Positions 3,318 through 24,741 of a stretch of DNA of 31,233 bases are shown in pieces. The position numbers were made by a program, and so were the translations under genes. A model generated the notes under the pieces. It made no database searches and was not told the DNA's origin. It was given only the letters and a program-made list of their open reading frames with translations. The first letter of the stretch is position 1, and each line of letters opens with the position of its first letter. The DNA comes from a virus: the IMG/VR virus record IMGVR_UViG_3300028829_004859, positions 1 to 31,233 of that record, one strand, 5' to 3'.

Positions 3318-4352
3318 ATGAGAATTGAAACAGATATTAAATTAGATTTTAATGATGTACTTTTAAAACCTAAAAGAAGTACACTTGAATCTAGATCACA
3401 AGTAAGATTAGAGAGAAAATTTACTTTTAAAAATAGTAACCGCCAATGGGAAGGTATTCCTATTATTGCTTCTAATATGGATGCAACAGGTACTGTAGAG
3501 ACATACAAAGTACTTAATCGTTATAAGATACTTACCTTTCTTCATAAACATTATAATATTGATACTTTGTATGATCTTTTTGCTTCTGAAAAGAGAGAGA
3601 ATTTAGCTTACTCAATGGGTATTACAGATTTAGATACTCAGAAATGGAAAATGCTAAAAAGTAAACTTCCAAAAGATACTATAAAGTTTGTTAATATTGA
3701 TGTAGCAAATGGATATACTGAAAGGTTTATTAATTTTATAAAAAGTTTTAGAGAAGAAAATCCTAATACTATTATAGTTGCTGGTAATGTATGTACTGCT
3801 GATCAAACGCAAGAGCTTATTTTAAGCGGAGCAGATATTATTAAAATTGGTATAGGACCAGGTTCTGTATGTACTACTAGAATACAAACAGGAGTAGGTT
3901 TTCCTCAATTATCTGCAGTTATAGAATGTAGTGATGCTGCTAATGGATTAGGTGGACATGTTATTTCAGATGGTGGTTGTACATCTCCAGGCGATGTAGC
4001 AAAAGCATTTGGTGCTGGAGCTCACTTTACTATGCTAGGTGGTATGTTAGCAGGTCACGAAGAATCTGGTGGTGATCTTGTTAATAGAGATGGTGAAATG
4101 GTAAAGCAGTTTTATGGTATGTCATCTGAAGTAGCTCAGAATAAGTATGATGGTGGGTTAAGTAAATATAAAAGTGCTGAAGGTAAAGTTGTTACTATGC
4201 CATTTAAAGGACCTTTAGAACCTACTGTACAAAGTATATTAGGTGGTTTAAGATCTGCTTGTACTTATGTTGGAGCAGCTAAGATAAGAGAATTAAGTAA
4301 GTGTAGTACCTTTATTTTAGTGAATAATACTCATAACAAAGTTTACGAATAA
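3318..4352 (+). CDS. guaC: GMP reductase
   Basis: GMP reductase deaminates GMP reductively to IMP with NADPH, releasing ammonia. The 344 residues match the usual bacterial length (about 347). Diagnostic segments are DVLLKPKRSTL (13-23), IPIIASNMD (47-55), the catalytic loop GIGPGSVCTTR with Cys185, ISDGGC (216-221) and MLGGMLAG. No CBS domains are inserted and the N-terminus is GuaC-like, so this is GMP reductase rather than IMP dehydrogenase. It follows the phosphoribosyltransferase without a gap. In an AT-rich phage it would pull guanine nucleotides back to IMP and so toward adenine nucleotides; that purpose is inference. A GAGG precedes the ATG. Confidence 0.9.
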   Translation: MRIETDIKLDFNDVLLKPKRSTLESRSQVRLERKFTFKNSNRQWEGIPIIASNMDATGTVETYKVLNRYKILTFLHKHYNIDTLYDLFASEKRENLAYSMGITDLDTQKWKMLKSKLPKDTIKFVNIDVANGYTERFINFIKSFREENPNTIIVAGNVCTADQTQELILSGADIIKIGIGPGSVCTTRIQTGVGFPQLSAVIECSDAANGLGGHVISDGGCTSPGDVAKAFGAGAHFTMLGGMLAGHEESGGDLVNRDGEMVKQFYGMSSEVAQNKYDGGLSKYKSAEGKVVTMPFKGPLEPTVQSILGGLRSACTYVGAAKIRELSKCSTFILVNNTHNKVYE

Positions 4353-4358
4353 TAAATA
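4351..4358 (+). promoter_or_regulatory. T4-type late promoter, one mismatch (AATAAATA)
   Basis: AATAAATA overlaps the guaC stop codon and differs from the T4 late consensus TATAAATA by one base. It precedes the 26-nt leader element at 4366 and the small membrane protein at 4427. Recognition would need a gp55-like late sigma factor, not encoded in this window. Confidence 0.4.
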
Positions 4359-4365
4359 ATTCAAC

Positions 4366-4391
4366 CAGGTAGCTCCTGTAGGTAAAACAGC
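4366..4391 (+). repeat. Leader element, copy A (26 nt, shared with the uvsX leader)
   Basis: The element reads CAGGTnGCTCCTG, four variable bases, then TAAAACAGC. It matches the copy at 23626-23651 at 21 of 26 positions without gaps. CAGG and CCTG can form a 4-bp hairpin, and the loop GCT could pair with the downstream AGC to make a small H-type pseudoknot. Both copies lie in a 5' leader downstream of a TATAAATA-like promoter. Translated in one frame both read QVAPxxKTA, so decayed coding sequence is an alternative. Confidence 0.5.
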
Positions 4392-4426
4392 AATTACATT
4401 TAAAAAATTAATTTATCGGAGCTATT

Positions 4427-4597
4427 ATGGATTTTTACGAAACTATGTTTGTTACTACTCTTGTGTCCGTCGTCGGTTTTGTCGCCTGGCGTGTGTACAT
4501 TATTGAGACTAATCATTTAAAGCATATAACAACAAGTATCGCAGAAATTAAGAATGATATTAAGTGGCTCGTTTCCTTCCACAAAGACAAAGAATAA
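4427..4597 (+). CDS. Small single-TM protein (56 aa)
   Basis: The ATG at 4427 follows a GGAG (4418-4421). The protein has a short N-terminus, one transmembrane helix (about residues 8-27, TLVSVVGFVAWRVYII) and a helical, charged tail ending FHKDKE. Codon use is richer in GTC and TCC than in the neighbours. The size and one-helix layout resemble small phage lysis-associated membrane proteins, but no family is recognised. Confidence 0.6.
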   Translation: MDFYETMFVTTLVSVVGFVAWRVYIIETNHLKHITTSIAEIKNDIKWLVSFHKDKE

Positions 4598-17764: not shown

Positions 17765-18038
17765 ATCTTAATCTTATATTCAACATATCATTGATACACT
17801 TAGGATCATGTCTATGCCACCATTGTAAAAGAAACTCTTGCATCTTTGCTTTGTTCTTTTCAGTGTAGACTACTATTGTATCTTTTATAAGTAAACTTTT
17901 ATCGTATTCTAAAACTTCTTTAGAGGAACCATAATAATTAACATATTGTTTTTCTGGTTTTTGAGAGAAACCTATGTAATATCTTCCATCTGGAAAATAA
18001 GTTACATAAACTCTAAAAACTTTTTTCGCTTTTCCCAT
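17685..18038 (-). CDS. GIY-YIG family endonuclease (117 aa)
   Basis: This is the only minus-strand gene seen. The N-terminus reads VFRVYVTYFPDGRYYIGFS: the YIG half is intact at residues 21-23 and the GIY half is degenerate. A conserved-type Glu lies in KMQEFLLQWW, and an Asn-containing segment follows (CINDMLN). It resembles the small free-standing GIY-YIG nucleases of T4-like phages (Seg family), which often act as homing enzymes. I use the ATG at 18036-18038; the longer open frame upstream runs through the tmRNA and is chance. That start codon overlaps the TATAAATA promoter that reads the other way into the tmRNA. Confidence 0.7.
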   Translation of the reverse strand: MGKAKKVFRVYVTYFPDGRYYIGFSQKPEKQYVNYYGSSKEVLEYDKSLLIKDTIVVYTEKNKAKMQEFLLQWWHRHDPKCINDMLNIRLRSKYLDGFVPVHWSPRDIRQLELDFHN

Positions 18039-18045
18039 ATAAATA
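18038..18045 (+). promoter_or_regulatory. T4-type late promoter for the tmRNA
   Basis: A perfect TATAAATA stands alone in front of the tmRNA. With T4 spacing, RNA would start near 18051, just upstream of the acceptor piece. This suggests the phage makes its tmRNA late in infection. Confidence 0.65.
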
Positions 18046-18050
18046 TTTAG

Positions 18051-18358
18051 TACGTTGCTTGATGATGGATCTCGCAATAGATAGGACGGACCCGGGGGCG
18101 GTACCCGGCGCCTCCACCATAAACACTTGCATAGTTGAGTGTTTCTTATGGGGGCGAAATAGGATCGACGTATGTTGAAAAGTTTTCTTAGAGATACGTA
18201 CATTAAAGTAAATGCTAAAAAAAGCACTACTTTTGCTTCAATCTTACCTGTAAAAGTCGAGCGTGTCTCACTTGTGCAGGAAGCTCTTGCAGCTTCAGCC
18301 TAGTCGACTTAGTAGCGATTAGCGGGGTGGGTACTACCTGGCAACAGAAGTGCCATTA
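18051..18358 (+). ncRNA. ssrA: Circularly permuted two-piece tmRNA (alphaproteobacterial type)
   Basis: tmRNA frees stalled ribosomes and tags the unfinished peptide. The acceptor piece comes first: T arm CCGGG 92-96/CCCGG 104-108 (18092-18108), then CGCCTCC 18109-18115 and ACCA ending at 18119. A 30-base spacer with a 7-bp hairpin (AAACACT/AGTGTTT) separates it from the coding piece, which begins GGGGGCGAAATAGGATCGACG at 18150. The two halves form a 7-bp acceptor stem with the G3-U70 wobble read by alanyl-tRNA synthetase. The resume codon is GCT at 18214, preceded by AAGTAAAT. The tag frame runs 29 codons to TAG 18301, starting AKKSTTF and ending EALAASA. The 3' part has TACCTGGCAACAGAAG, typical of alphaproteobacteria. 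Outer ends are approximate. Confidence 0.92.
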
Positions 18359-18376
18359 ATTTTTTAGGAGTATATT

Positions 18377-18520
18377 ATGCCAACGCGATTTAGACCTCAA
18401 ACAACACACATTTCAAATCCAAAGAAGACCTCTATTGGACGTAAACCTTCAGTAGCAATGATGAACAAAAACAAAAGAAGAAGCTTTAAAAAATATAGAG
18501 CACAAGGATCTTCACGTTGA
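18377..18520 (+). CDS. Small basic conserved protein (47 aa)
   Basis: AGGAG at 18366-18370 precedes the ATG. The sequence PKKTSIGRKPS followed by NKNKRRSFKKYRAQG matches a short basic protein I recall from many marine T4-like phages. Its charge suggests binding to RNA, DNA or ribosomes. It lies straight after the tmRNA and may share its late transcript. Its stop overlaps the next TTG start. Confidence 0.65.
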   Translation: MPTRFRPQTTHISNPKKTSIGRKPSVAMMNKNKRRSFKKYRAQGSSR

Positions 18521-20724: not shown

Positions 20725-22412
20725 TGTGCGGAATTAATGGTATAACTGAAGGTAATCAGTTAGCTAGAATTTATAGAATGATGGAGCATACAAAGAGAAG
20801 AGGGCCTGATGGTTCTTCTACTTGGACTAATCATCATGTATCTTTCGGACATAACTTATTAGCTATCTATGGAGATATAGGTCAATCTTTACAACCTTAT
20901 CTTTATAAAGATAGCGCACTAATATTCAATGGTGCTATCTATAATCATAAAGAGTTTTATCCTGAGTATGAAATAGATACTCATGCTGTAGCTAAAGGAT
21001 TATATGAGGAAGGTCCTAAGTTTTTAAGTAAATTAGAAGGTATGTGGGCTTTAGCTTTCTATAAAGATGGTAAGTTAATTATAGCAAGAGACCATTTTGG
21101 AGTTAAACCTTTATTTTATAGAAATACTAACAAAGGTATGATATTTTCATCATCTATGCATGCATTAGAAAGAAAAGAAACTAAATTAAATCTTTTTGCT
21201 TTTGCTCTTTATAGACAATTTGGATATGTTCCTGGTTACTTAACTTTAATTGATGAAACTTTTAAATTAACTCCAGGGCAGATAATTGAATATGATTGTT
21301 TAACAAGAAAAAGAGTAACAACTAATGTATGGGATGATTATAATTTTATAAATGATTTAGATGTTAGTAAAGAACAGTTTAGAGATGAACTTGAGGAAGC
21401 AATTAGAAAAAGTTATATTGGTGTTAGACAGCGAGGTGTTTTTCTTTCTGGTGGTCTTGATAGTACTTCTGTTGCTCACTATCTAGAAGAAAAGAATACA
21501 TTCACATCAAGATATGAGCCTCAATCAGCTAACTTTAATGACGATGCTGATATGGCTCAAAAAATGGCTGAAGAATATAATTTTAATCATTGTAATATTA
21601 ATATTACTCCAGAAAATTATTATGCTGATTTAGAAGAAGCTATGTTAGCTTTAGAGCAACCTGTATTCAATAAATCTACTCCATCTTATTTTACAATTAA
21701 TAGAGCTCTAAAAGAAGCAGGAACTATTGTTACTTATTCTGGAGATGGTGGAGATGAGATGTATACAGGTTATATAACTCATGGTAGATATGATAATACA
21801 GATAATCCATTTAGGGACCATTATAGAGCTATTGCGTGGAAACCTAAAAAACGAATGAATGTATTAGATCAAAGTTTAGAAATGGGAGAAGTAGCTTATG
21901 TCAACTATATGGAAAGCTGGTTTCCTGGTAACGTTTTTGGTGATGATCACCTTAACAACTGTTTGTTTGTAGAAATGCTTACAAGAGTATCAGAAGACTT
22001 TTTAACTAGAAATGATAAGTTTGGTTCATATTTTGGAATGGAAGGAAGATTTCCTTTACTCAATCAAAAGTTCTATAAGTACGTGATGGGTATACCTTCA
22101 TTAATTAAAATGGAAAATTTAGAACCTAATAAGTACGCTAATGGTGAATATAAGTTTTTAGCTAGAGATAGTTTAAAAGGTATTCTACCTGAATATATTA
22201 TTAACAAACCTAAAACAGGATGGTCTATTCCAGATAATGAATGGAGAAAGACTCAACAGAAGTTTAGAGATAAGATGGTTAGTCGTATAAGAGAACCATT
22301 AGATAATAAAATAGATAACTTAGTTGATTGGCAAAGAGCAGATGGAGTAAAGACTTTCTACGCTTCAGCTTTCTTTAAAACTTGGGCTAAGAACGTTAAC
22401 TTAACATTATAA
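20724..22412 (+). CDS. asnB: Asparagine synthetase, glutamine-hydrolysing (562 aa)
   Basis: The ATG at 20724 puts cysteine at position 2 (MCGINGI), the N-terminal nucleophile of the class II glutaminase domain. RRGPDG and FNGAIYNH complete that half. The synthetase half has the PP-loop SGGLDS (242-247) and SGDGGDEM. It makes amide groups using glutamine, ATP and an acid, normally aspartate. Phage and surface-glycan relatives may amidate other acids, so 'asparagine synthetase-like' is the safe name. The glutamine riboswitch directly downstream does not control this gene but suggests glutamine is watched here. The stop codon overlaps a late promoter. Confidence 0.92.
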   Translation: MCGINGITEGNQLARIYRMMEHTKRRGPDGSSTWTNHHVSFGHNLLAIYGDIGQSLQPYLYKDSALIFNGAIYNHKEFYPEYEIDTHAVAKGLYEEGPKFLSKLEGMWALAFYKDGKLIIARDHFGVKPLFYRNTNKGMIFSSSMHALERKETKLNLFAFALYRQFGYVPGYLTLIDETFKLTPGQIIEYDCLTRKRVTTNVWDDYNFINDLDVSKEQFRDELEEAIRKSYIGVRQRGVFLSGGLDSTSVAHYLEEKNTFTSRYEPQSANFNDDADMAQKMAEEYNFNHCNINITPENYYADLEEAMLALEQPVFNKSTPSYFTINRALKEAGTIVTYSGDGGDEMYTGYITHGRYDNTDNPFRDHYRAIAWKPKKRMNVLDQSLEMGEVAYVNYMESWFPGNVFGDDHLNNCLFVEMLTRVSEDFLTRNDKFGSYFGMEGRFPLLNQKFYKYVMGIPSLIKMENLEPNKYANGEYKFLARDSLKGILPEYIINKPKTGWSIPDNEWRKTQQKFRDKMVSRIREPLDNKIDNLVDWQRADGVKTFYASAFFKTWAKNVNLTL

Positions 22413-22415
22413 ATA
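22408..22415 (+). promoter_or_regulatory. T4-type late promoter for the riboswitch transcript
   Basis: A perfect TATAAATA overlaps the asparagine synthetase stop codon. With T4 spacing RNA starts near 22421, exactly at the first base of the riboswitch aptamer. Confidence 0.65.
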
Positions 22416-22420
22416 AACTA

Positions 22421-22472
22421 TCGTTGGGGTTTCCATACCCGGAAGTAAGCTATTTTGCTGAAGCAACGCACT
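22421..22472 (+). promoter_or_regulatory. Glutamine riboswitch, glnA-type aptamer
   Basis: The conserved skeleton is present: P1 CGTTG 22422-22426/CAACG 22464-22468, a small GGG/CCC hairpin, then GGAAGTA, the P3 hairpin AGC/GCT, and GAAG before CAACGCAC. The reported glnA class has CGUUC/GAACG in P1, so the change here to CGTTG/CAACG keeps pairing, which supports the fold. These aptamers bind glutamine in cyanobacteria, cyanophages and marine DNA. The ribosome site AAGGAAG of the next gene lies about 15 bases downstream, so control of translation is plausible. Confidence 0.82.
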
Positions 22473-22496: not shown

Positions 22497-22742
22497 ATGA
22501 CAAATATAATCGAAACTAAATTTGGAACCTTGGTTAATACAAAAAAGATAGCCGCAGGAAGTGCATCTAGTATAAAAAAATCTGGAGCATTTTATAATTT
22601 TTCAATACGTATTACTAATGATGATATAAGAGAATACTCATTTACAGATCTCACAAGAGCTGAATATATGAGAAGAATTATGATTGGTCATTTAGAAGAA
22701 AAAATTAAAAACGATTCGAAAAATATTCCTAAAACTGCATAA
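22497..22742 (+). CDS. Riboswitch-controlled small protein (81 aa)
   Basis: AAGGAAG precedes the ATG at 22497; the longer open frame upstream passes through the riboswitch and is not real. The protein has a mixed alpha/beta look: FGTLVNTKKIAAGSASSI, then FYNFSIRITNDDIREYSFTD and a helix, DLTRAEYMRRIMIGHLEEKI. It is not recognised. Its glutamine riboswitch suggests a role in nitrogen status or in an amide-nitrogen enzyme; inference. Confidence 0.7.
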   Translation: MTNIIETKFGTLVNTKKIAAGSASSIKKSGAFYNFSIRITNDDIREYSFTDLTRAEYMRRIMIGHLEEKIKNDSKNIPKTA

Positions 22743-22761
22743 AAATATTCGAGTAACTAAC

Positions 22762-22769
22762 TATAAATA
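22762..22769 (+). promoter_or_regulatory. T4-type late promoter for hsp20
   Basis: A perfect TATAAATA, preceded by the AATATTCGAGTAACTAAC box also seen in variant form at 23564-23582. RNA would start near 22775. The leader contains a small CCGA-GTAA-TCGG hairpin before the hsp20 gene. Confidence 0.6.
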
Positions 22770-22829
22770 ACGTACACTAGCCGAGTAATCGGGAGTGACA
22801 ACCGTCTTGCATAACAAATGGAGGCAAAT

Positions 22830-23240
22830 ATGACTGGTACTTTTATGTTCCCAAGGAACGCTTTTTTAGGTTTCGACCATCTCTTAAACGAGATCGATAA
22901 CATCGGCTTACACGCTAAGGATACATATCCACCGCACAATGTAGTGAAGTTAAGCGCCACAGAGCACTTAGTTGAGCTAGCAATAGCGGGATTTAGCAAA
23001 GAAGATATTAAGATTGAGGTAAAAGAGCACGTATTAACTATTACAGGAAATCGTGAACGTCGAAGACCACAGGAAATGTATGTCCACAAGGGCATTTCAG
23101 CTCGTAAGTTTACTAAATCTTATAGGCTGTCTGAGTACACCGAAGTTACAGGTGCTGATATTACTAATGGAATTCTTGTCATTAATCTTGAAGTTAAACT
23201 TCCAGAAGAAAGAAAACCTAAAGTAATTAATATTAACTAA
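22830..23240 (+). CDS. Hsp20 / small heat shock chaperone (136 aa)
   Basis: The alpha-crystallin domain spans roughly residues 34-130. Its key parts are YPPHNVVKL, VELAIAGFSKEDIKIEV, LTITGNRER and the ADITNGILVINLEVKLPEE strand. The C-terminal tail ends in KVININ, the I-x-I type anchor used for oligomerisation. The family holds unfolding proteins in an ATP-independent way and is common in marine T4-like phages, perhaps for capsid proteins. The ATG at 22830 is chosen because GGAGG lies six bases upstream; the earlier ATG at 22818 overlaps that site. Arginines here use CGT, unlike most neighbours. Confidence 0.93.
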   Translation: MTGTFMFPRNAFLGFDHLLNEIDNIGLHAKDTYPPHNVVKLSATEHLVELAIAGFSKEDIKIEVKEHVLTITGNRERRRPQEMYVHKGISARKFTKSYRLSEYTEVTGADITNGILVINLEVKLPEERKPKVININ

Positions 23241-23284
23241 TCAGCGACTCTCATTTTTAATTAAGTCAAAAATGGAGTAAACCA

Positions 23285-23518
23285 ATGACTGCAATAACTC
23301 AAACTACATATAATGTCACATGTAAGATATGTGCTTCAATTGCTAACGCATTAAAAGAAACATTAAGAGCTATCATAGTAGGTAGACAGATGTCAGCTAA
23401 TGTACAAGTAGCAAGAGAATTACAACAACTAGGATTCTATGGCAGAGATCAAGATTTAAGGCATATTATTATGCAATTAAATGACAAGACTGCTAAAGAA
23501 TACGAAAAGAGATCTTAA
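23285..23518 (+). CDS. Conserved-looking small protein (77 aa)
   Basis: The N-terminus has a CKIC pair, then a helix with ALKETLRAIIVGRQ, and ARELQQLGFYGRDQD, which recalls short proteins next to hsp20/uvsX in marine T4-like phages. A CATTTTT/AAAAATG inverted repeat (23252-23258 and 23268-23274) sits just before the GGAG of this gene and could partly mask the ribosome site. Function unknown. Confidence 0.6.
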   Translation: MTAITQTTYNVTCKICASIANALKETLRAIIVGRQMSANVQVARELQQLGFYGRDQDLRHIIMQLNDKTAKEYEKRS

Positions 23519-23563
23519 GTGTGGCCTTATTCAGATGAAGAAAATGATTGGTTAAGTAGCTAA
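23519..23563 (+). CDS. Possible 14-residue micro-ORF with GTG start
   Basis: The GTG directly follows the previous stop. The frame reads WPYSDEENDWLSS, similar to very short Trp/Tyr-rich acidic peptides I recall near uvsX in marine T4-like phages. No ribosome site is visible; translation could be by re-initiation. Protein-level evidence would be needed. Confidence 0.35.
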   Translation: MWPYSDEENDWLSS

Positions 23564-23582
23564 ACATTTTCGAAAAACTTAC

Positions 23583-23590
23583 TATAAATA
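23583..23590 (+). promoter_or_regulatory. Late-type promoter (TATAAATA) ahead of uvsX
   Basis: A perfect TATAAATA preceded by CATTTTCGAAAAACTTAC, the same upstream T/A box as the TATAATAATA promoters. The predicted start near 23596 falls inside the 5' arm of the terminator hairpin at 23593-23614. Confidence 0.55.
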
Positions 23591-23592
23591 TT

Positions 23593-23625
23593 GAGGCAGT
23601 CGAAAGATTGCCTCTTTATTTTTTT
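23593..23625 (+). terminator. Intrinsic terminator with GAAA tetraloop upstream of uvsX
   Basis: GAGGCAGTC 23593-23601 pairs with GATTGCCTC 23606-23614 (9 bp, one G-U), closed by a GAAA tetraloop. It is followed by TTTATTTTTTT 23615-23625. This is a textbook factor-independent terminator for transcripts coming from hsp20. Transcripts started by the overlapping late promoter would lack the first three bases of the stem. Confidence 0.75.
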
Positions 23626-23651
23626 CAGGTCGCTCCTGCGAATAAAACAGC
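23626..23651 (+). repeat. Leader element, copy B (26 nt, shared with position 4366)
   Basis: CAGGTCGCTCCTG, four variable bases, then TAAAACAGC, directly after the terminator T-tract and 13 bases before the uvsX ATG. It matches copy A (4366-4391) at 21 of 26 positions. See that entry for possible folding and the coding alternative. Confidence 0.5.
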
Positions 23652-23664
23652 TAACGAGGATAAT

Positions 23665-24741
23665 ATGAACTTACTAGATAAACTTAAGAAAACTTCTACT
23701 GTCAAGCAAACTGCTATACTCTCCGAAAGTAAACTCTTTAATAAGAAAGATATGATCACTACAGATATACCTGTATTGAATATTGCTTTGTCGGGCACTA
23801 TCGATGGTGGATTAACCCCTGGACTAACTGTTATTGCTGGTCCTTCTAAACACTTTAAATCTAACCTTGCTCTTATAATGACATCTGCTTATCTTAAAAA
23901 GTTTCCAGATGCTATTTGTCTATTATATGATACTGAGTTCGGTATCACTCCTGATTACTTAACTGCTATGGGTGTTGATCCTAAGAGATGCTTGCATACT
24001 CCTGTAGAGCATGTAGAGCAGCTTAAGTTTGATATTGTTAAGCAATTAGAGAATATTGATAGAGGTGATAAAGTCATTATTATGATTGACTCTATTGGTA
24101 ACTTAGCTTCTAAGAAAGAACTAGAAGATGCTATGAATGAGAAATCTGTTGCAGATATGTCTAGAGCTAAAGCATTGAAAGGTCTGTTTAGAATTATAAC
24201 TCCTTATCTAACTACTAGAGATATTCCTGCTGTAGTTATCAATCATACTTATAAAGAGATTGGTTTATTTCCTAAAGATATTATGTCAGGTGGTACTGGT
24301 ATATACTACTCTGCTAATCAGATATTCTTTATGGGTAGACAGCAAGAGAAAGAAGGTACTGAAATCGCTGGTTATAACTTTATGATCGGTGTAGAGAAGA
24401 GTCGATTCACAAAAGAAAAGACTAGAGTTCCTTTAGTAGTAACTTGGGATGGTGGTATCTCTAAATGGGGTGGATTACTAGAAATAGGTATGTTATTAGG
24501 TTGGGTAAGAAAACCTTCTAATGGATGGTATGAAGGTATCAATCCTACTACTGGTGAAGTTATGACTGATAAAAAGAGAAAAGCAGATACAAGTAACTCT
24601 GACTTCTGGATTCCTTTATTCAAAGCTGGAATGGCAGATGCTGTTGCTAAAAAGTTTTCTATTGCATCAAGCAAAGGTATAGTAGAAGAAGATAATGAAG
24701 ATAGAACTATAGAGGTAGAAGTAAATGAAACCGAATCCTAA
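23665..24741 (+). CDS. uvsX: UvsX recombinase (RecA-like)
   Basis: UvsX forms filaments on single-stranded DNA and drives strand exchange in recombination-dependent replication and repair. From the ATG at 23665, Walker A is GPSKHFKSN (59-67), very close to the T4 form, and Walker B is VIIMIDS (137-143). The 358 residues compare with 391 in T4. The C-terminus is acidic, as in UvsX/RecA tails. GAGG lies five bases before the ATG; the in-frame upstream TTG at 23608 falls inside the terminator hairpin and is rejected. It overlaps the next ORF by 17 bases. Confidence 0.95.
   Translation: MNLLDKLKKTSTVKQTAILSESKLFNKKDMITTDIPVLNIALSGTIDGGLTPGLTVIAGPSKHFKSNLALIMTSAYLKKFPDAICLLYDTEFGITPDYLTAMGVDPKRCLHTPVEHVEQLKFDIVKQLENIDRGDKVIIMIDSIGNLASKKELEDAMNEKSVADMSRAKALKGLFRIITPYLTTRDIPAVVINHTYKEIGLFPKDIMSGGTGIYYSANQIFFMGRQQEKEGTEIAGYNFMIGVEKSRFTKEKTRVPLVVTWDGGISKWGGLLEIGMLLGWVRKPSNGWYEGINPTTGEVMTDKKRKADTSNSDFWIPLFKAGMADAVAKKFSIASSKGIVEEDNEDRTIEVEVNETES

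Follow-up and report, generated by a model that had tools for sequence, protein, structure and literature searches.

Late promoters of T4 carry a box that spans positions −13 to −6, and among T4-like phages these promoters vary at −13, according to the promoter passages of PMC1524935. Some late promoters lie within hairpins that hide ribosome-binding sites: the sections of PMC2988022 on such hairpins place them there for T4 e, soc, I-TevI and segB and for mobE of Aeh1, and name soc, e, 39, 25, 26 and endonuclease genes for this arrangement. In the e/I-TevI class, upstream RNA forms the inhibitory hairpin, and late RNA starts too far downstream to include its whole 5′ arm (PMC2988022, same sections). 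Early and late promoters overlap in the ‘middle’ genes of RB49 and S-PM2 (PMC2984593, passages on these genes), and ordinary intrinsic terminators of T4-like phages have a GC-rich stem, a 4-nt loop and a U-tract (PMC2988022, terminator passages).

Here we describe a site at which a predicted late promoter box lies against a terminator hairpin, in a virus record of 31,233 bases that is probably a fragment (hereafter the window, meaning the whole stretch analysed). As in the e/I-TevI class, the predicted late start (+1, 23596) falls in the 5′ arm of a hairpin (23593–23601), and late RNA would lack part of that arm; that class hides a ribosome-binding site, whereas the window hairpin is of the terminator type with a T-rich tract, and the Shine-Dalgarno sequence (SD) of uvsX (23656–23659) lies outside it. 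The site is thus best classed as the T4 trick changed, with a terminator in place of the hidden ribosome-binding site. The overlapping promoters of RB49 and S-PM2 find a likeness in the box, which is TATAAATA in the window and, at the corresponding position of its two closest relatives (loci L002 and L003), TATAATAA; unlike the window site, they are described without a terminator in the passages of PMC2984593 that concern them. The hairpin and its tract resemble ordinary T4-like terminators, from which the window differs in having a promoter start point within the stem. No description of such a promoter-in-terminator arrangement was found in a search of the open-access PMC literature.

Anatomy of the site between hsp20 and uvsX

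The window encodes a T4-like protein set comprising the sliding clamp, clamp loader, DNA polymerase, primase, ribonucleotide reductase, Hsp20, UvsX and the replicative helicase. Gp45 (PHROG 223) is encoded, and gp55 and gp33 were not seen among the ORFs scanned in this 31-kb fragment. The nearest named UvsX, that of Phage C48C1, is only 58% identical, which places the phage in a lineage without close named members. The window also contains a permuted (alpha-type) tmRNA gene (18010–18394, tag AKKSTTFASILPVKVERVSLVQEALAASA), with TATAAATA at 18038; this gene points to an alphaproteobacterial host or origin, and a tmRNA is also present in the relative L313. From hsp20, the order continues through a 77-aa ORF, TATAAATA, the hairpin, the T-rich tract, a small structured element and the SD GAGG to uvsX, with the following features:

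22762..22769, + strand: TATAAATA, late-type box 5′ of hsp20 (word scan); predicted +1 at 22775, the first base of the hsp20-leader hairpin
22818..23240, + strand: hsp20, 140 aa (PHROG 432, E 1.2e-34)
23285..23518, + strand: 77-aa ORF, a small ORF 3′ of hsp20 (ORF list; counterparts 3′ of hsp20 in the hsp20 loci of relatives)
23583..23590, + strand: TATAAATA, predicted T4-type late promoter box (exact match; such boxes are positionally enriched at terminators)
23593..23614, + strand: intrinsic terminator hairpin of 9 bp with a GAAA loop, predicted +1 23596 in its 5′ arm (direct reading, terminator scan and folding; hairpin conserved in L002 and L003)
23615..23625, + strand: T-rich tract TTTATTTTTTT, 11 nt, 10 of 11 T (direct reading)
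23626..23653, + strand: uvsX leader element, a candidate H-type pseudoknot made of the hairpin CAGG-TCGCT-CCTG (23626–23638), the A-rich linker TAAAACA and GCTA (23650–23653) (covariation in 19 related leaders)
23656..23659, + strand: Shine-Dalgarno GAGG of uvsX (direct reading)
23665..24741, + strand: uvsX, RecA-like recombinase, 358 aa, ATG at 23665 (PHROG 97, E 1.7e-88)

The first-pass annotation had placed the start of the hairpin three bases past the box, and direct reading agrees: the box ends at 23590, the spacer consists of the two bases TT, and the stem begins at 23593. The 9-bp stem, GAAA loop and T-tract that it described are likewise present in 23593–23625, with the 5′ arm GAGGCAGTC at 23593–23601, the loop at 23602–23605 and the 3′ arm GATTGCCTC at 23606–23614; five of the nine pairs are GC and one is G-U. 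The site thus has the GC-rich stem, the short loop and the T-tract directly 3′ of the stem that characterise an intrinsic terminator, and its TATAAATA lies at −13 to −6 of the predicted +1, as a T4-type late promoter box does.

Applied to this box, the T4 spacing gives a +1 at 23596 and leaves late RNA with 6 of the 9 pairs, in accord with the start near 23596 and the stem cut to 6 bp that had been proposed from the sequence. The predicted late RNA lacks the GAG at the stem foot, and its remaining six pairs lie 3 nt from the U-tract; folded with the tail, the full RNA reaches −15.6 kcal/mol and the RNA from the predicted +1 reaches −7.4 kcal/mol. Because the ATG and SD of uvsX lie further downstream, the SD 42 nt 3′ of the stem, the hairpin is wholly within the leader.

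A loose scan for terminators in the window returned background numbers (7 found vs 6.3 expected). Strict terminators, with at least 9 pairs, at least 5 GC pairs and at least 7 T in 9, occurred twice in the window and turned up in just 3 of 200 dinucleotide shuffles. TATAAATA is not over-represented in the window (4 seen vs 7.9 expected in shuffles), and all four copies are on the + strand, immediately 5′ of genes or RNA elements. The copy 5′ of hsp20, at 22762–22769, is the likely source of the RNA that arrives at the terminator.

Recurrence in relatives, at hsp20 loci and across terminators

In L002 and L003, whose UvsX proteins are 84–87% identical to that of the window, ACTATAATAAG occupies the site. 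The hairpins behind it share the GAGGC/GCCTC core with that of the window, differ from it in their loops, and have extra outer pairs, with short T-tracts after them. Their full stems fold at −16.2 kcal/mol (L002) and −15.6 kcal/mol (L003), and RNAs starting 7 nt past TATAAT at −5.8 and −6.1 kcal/mol, respectively; in the window as in both relatives, the predicted start falls within the 5′ arm. The box of both relatives is nearer to a sigma-70 −10 element than to the late consensus, so the register between box and stem has been kept while the box shifted from late-like to sigma-70-like. UvsX relatives at 72–76% identity lack the terminator and have an A/T-rich box directly 5′ of the second (leader) element. 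Since the hsp20 loci retain the terminator, we rejected the idea of a uvsX-specific feature.

To place the site among hsp20 loci, 80 such loci from viral contigs were considered, of which 8 with less than 620 nt downstream were dropped. A terminator lay within 750 nt of hsp20 at 55 of the remaining 72, and NATAAATA or TATAAT overlapped the foot of a terminator stem at 44 of the 72 (34 of 58 after removal of repeats of the first 400 nt). Both the stems and the next genes of these overlap loci differ between phages, and in the overlap cases listed a small ORF sits between hsp20 and the joint. As the element is found 3′ of hsp20 in phages whose next gene is other than uvsX, its tie to uvsX is probably incidental, and the joint appears from these sequences to belong to the hsp20 unit. 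Ten of the 72 loci (L144, L146, L148, L149, L153, L154, L156, L157, L158 and L160) have the reverse order, with the terminator first and TATAAATA directly 3′ of it, which marks another sub-group of hsp20 loci.

Among eight named phages inspected, the overlap 3′ of hsp20 was absent in seven. The sole exception is the named complete genome of Phage C48C1, in which AATAAATA lies against a GGGGGAGAGATCCCCC hairpin just 3′ of hsp20 and a 34-aa annotated ORF; in Syn1, the box is some 10–16 nt ahead of the stem, with no overlap. The joint is therefore frequent in the window's own, unisolated clade, and cyanophages at large do not share it. As a separate observation, the hsp20 leaders of several cyanophages (upstream of hsp20 in L323, L326, L329 and L330) share a TTGCC..GGGG.C..CTCGCTTA-like motif, which has a possible counterpart at 22770–22817 of the window and no Rfam match at the gathering score.

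We then considered terminators in general. The loci searched total 3.29 million bases and yielded 417 terminators, counted without redundancy, whose stems fold at −9 kcal/mol or lower; as most of these loci had been retrieved through their similarity to hsp20 and UvsX, they are neither random nor independent, and the hsp20 loci share ancestry. The exact word TATAAATA was discarded as a search word: the window and 12 further records contain 132 such boxes, and just one of them has a terminator that starts within −20 to +60. Because T4-like late promoters vary at −13, the word was widened to NATAAATA, which gave a signal: it ended between −6 and +5 relative to the first stem base at 32 of the 417 terminators. 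Shuffling the same 20-nt stretches 500 times gave 2.8 on average and never more than 8, and windows further upstream of the stems gave counts of 0 or 1. Counted as clusters at 70% identity, NATAAATA occurred in 20 groups in the 12 stem-foot positions vs 3 in 54 upstream positions, and 7 of the 20 contained a locus that had not been fetched by hsp20. The corresponding groups for control words were 8 vs 18 (AATAAT) and 2 vs 18 (TAATAT), with a milder excess for TATAAT (12 vs 20).

Searching from the box gave a matching picture, with a hairpin at the foot of [AT]ATAAATA at 36 of 540 sites, vs 2/440 for TTATTAAT, 0/262 for ATTAAATA and 5/449 for AATAATAA as control words. Hairpins were also seen at the foot of words with letters in common with late or −10 boxes, at 28/502 (ATAAATA[AT]), 27/341 (TAAATAAA) and 17/529 (TATAATAA), and [CG]ATAAATA gave 3/217. 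Two matches of this box and hairpin scan, which from their position we take to be T4 genes e and 49, have the late promoter in the 5′ arm of the hairpin; gene 49 is presumably a further case of a hidden ribosome-binding site, as a reference title indicates.

The 32 stem-foot cases comprise 24 distinct 5′ arms. A purine stands at the predicted +1 of 31 of them, compared to a purine share of 63% in the first eight stem bases across all 417 terminators. Between 0 and 7 stem bases lie ahead of the predicted +1; in most cases 2 to 7 stem-foot bases are removed, and 30 of the 32 retain 4 to 9 pairs. The L121 class loses one pair and keeps nearly the whole hairpin in late RNA, and L304 and L290 keep almost none of it. 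With such variation in depth, weakening of the stem is not universal. In many relatives, the 9 nt 3′ of the stem include no more than 5 or 6 T.

A candidate transcription joint and competing readings

We favour, with moderate confidence and on sequence grounds, a reading of 23583–23625 as a compact transcription joint that combines a stop for RNA of the hsp20 unit with a late restart for uvsX. Polymerase arriving from hsp20 and the 77-aa ORF would transcribe all 9 bp of the hairpin, with the U-tract immediately behind it, and would mostly stop, and late-modified polymerase would start at about 23596. Without the GAG that closes the stem, late RNA would form a hairpin of 6 bp set 3 nt off the U-tract, which should be far weaker and is therefore expected to terminate poorly, so that late RNA would run on into the uvsX leader. 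In this way the joint would sever uvsX from hsp20 transcription and restart it from the late promoter. Late RNA would also begin with a blunt 5′-terminal hairpin, which may protect the RNA end.

The first-pass annotation had proposed an insulator that resets transcription ahead of uvsX, and this stands in part. Its terminator for hsp20 RNA, its late box with the +1 in the 5′ arm and the conserved register are evident at the level of sequence. The recurrence at hsp20 loci, the enrichment at stem feet and the recovery of T4 e and 49 in the scan make the insulator or reset reading plausible and strengthen it; escape of late RNA would be its further step. Against a strict ‘escape’ design stand the spread of 0 to 7 stem bases ahead of +1 in the 32 cases and the L121 class. 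The L002/L003 box, which is not the late consensus, the short T-tracts of many relatives and the presence of the overlap in just one of the eight named phages also count against the joint reading. The tie to uvsX is probably incidental. The arrangement itself is real, conserved and more general than could be seen from the window, and its mechanism is plausible.

More tentatively, and short of an even chance in our estimate, promoter-in-terminator joints may be widespread and undescribed in marine T4-like phages. A single inverted repeat would then be read two ways, as a stop for upstream RNA and as a non-terminating 5′-cap hairpin for late RNA, and late units would be insulated and restarted with about 45 bp. 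If true, the T4 trick of starting inside a hairpin would serve to pass a terminator, beyond freeing ribosome-binding sites, and adjacent phage units would be insulated, with transcription reset between them, by a very small element. The rule is simple (a box at the stem foot): any T4-like genome can be scanned for it, and a single template suffices for a test.

Alternatively, the two elements could be packed next to each other for economy of space. The terminator would end the hsp20 unit and the late promoter would start the next, the overlap would have no regulatory meaning, and late RNA would pass since termination is weak or ineffective at so short a distance from the start. Tight packing alone may be the trait under selection, given the ten hsp20 loci in the opposite order and the 15 of 417 terminators with NATAAATA within 20 nt 3′ of the stem. 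However, the overlapping order is the commoner one, at 32 of the 417 terminators and 44 of the 72 hsp20 loci, and most of the 32 cases lose stem-foot bases, and we consider packing unlikely.

A lower probability still attaches to the proposal that the selected function is a 5′-terminal hairpin guarding late mRNA from 5′-end-dependent decay, with termination of upstream RNA as a by-product. A +1 inside the stem would give late RNA a blunt-paired beginning, with the 4 to 9 pairs left in 30 of the 32 cases, and hairpins or structured RNAs lie at other predicted starts: the hsp20-leader hairpin at its own +1 (22775), a glutamine riboswitch aptamer at 22420 next to a +1 at 22421, and the leader hairpin that begins 5 nt past the box in L011, L014, L017, L341 and L350. 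The T-tract of the window is nevertheless strong, with 10 of 11 T, and the general test was modest, the mean pairing of the first three nucleotides being 0.45 for [AT]ATAAATA vs 0.28–0.42 for control words; we regard this proposal as improbable.

A switch of the T4 e/49 type, with a ribosome-binding site that the hairpin masks in upstream RNA and that becomes accessible in late RNA, would have the identical geometry, and the scan recovers both T4 genes. We rejected it as highly improbable: the uvsX SD is outside the hairpin, and computed SD openness is no higher in late RNA. For the 28 cases that have an SD, the means are 0.56 (full) vs 0.41 (late), and the window values are 0.41 vs 0.30. Equally hard to credit is a meaningless TATAAATA that fell next to a real terminator by chance, which would suit the unremarkable frequency of this word in the window but not its position-specific recurrence at hsp20 loci and at terminators generally.

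The uvsX leader element and other structured leaders

The small structured element between the T-rich tract and the SD of uvsX has a second copy in the window:

4366..4391, + strand: second copy of the uvsX-type leader element, 5′ of a 56-aa ORF (4427–4597), with AATAAATA at 4351–4358

An H-type pseudoknot model, in which a hairpin is joined by pairing between its loop and the tail, had 95.4% of cells paired in 19 sequences. Seven of these had been picked out by sequence patterns or, in the window, by eye, so that only the twelve uvsX leaders are free of such selection; slid versions of the model reached at most 52.6%. Four of the eight pairs changed on both sides among the 19 sequences, and the first helix is paired in all of them; the window loses one of the four loop–tail (P2) pairs, as C-U. 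A known RNA family at the joint or leader was rejected on the Rfam results, which held just two weak sRNA matches for 22700–24000 (E ≤ 5) and nothing of note for 4300–4460 (E ≤ 10).

The element precedes uvsX in relatives both with and without the terminator, and is also found 5′ of a small protein of 56–70 aa (4366–4391 in the window; L247, L252, L257 and L338) and of a 78-aa protein (L341 and L350). The window thus looks like a junction of two modules, one with hsp20, the small ORF and the promoter-in-terminator, and the other with the leader element and uvsX. In all, the element is represented by two window copies (4351–4440 and 23626–23660) and by three gene families in relatives. In the five loci named above in which the late box ends 5 nt ahead of the element, late RNA would begin on the first base of the element.

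In the leader of the 56-aa gene, an alternative pairing of the strand TAGCTCC with GGAGCTA of the SD region is possible (in L252, GTTGCTCC with GGAGCAAC), which suggests a possible translational switch. A further pairing concerns terminators in L005, L009, L088, L092, L113, L119, L161 and L249, where GGAG/CTCC arms are followed by an SD, GGAGG; the CTCC freed in late RNA could pair with this SD, and computed SD openness falls in several of these loci. Finally, the glutamine riboswitch (RF01739, 42.9 bits) lies at 22408–22472, ahead of a 95-aa ORF. The +1 one base from its aptamer start is predicted from TATAAATA at 22408, and late mRNA from this box would begin with the riboswitch.
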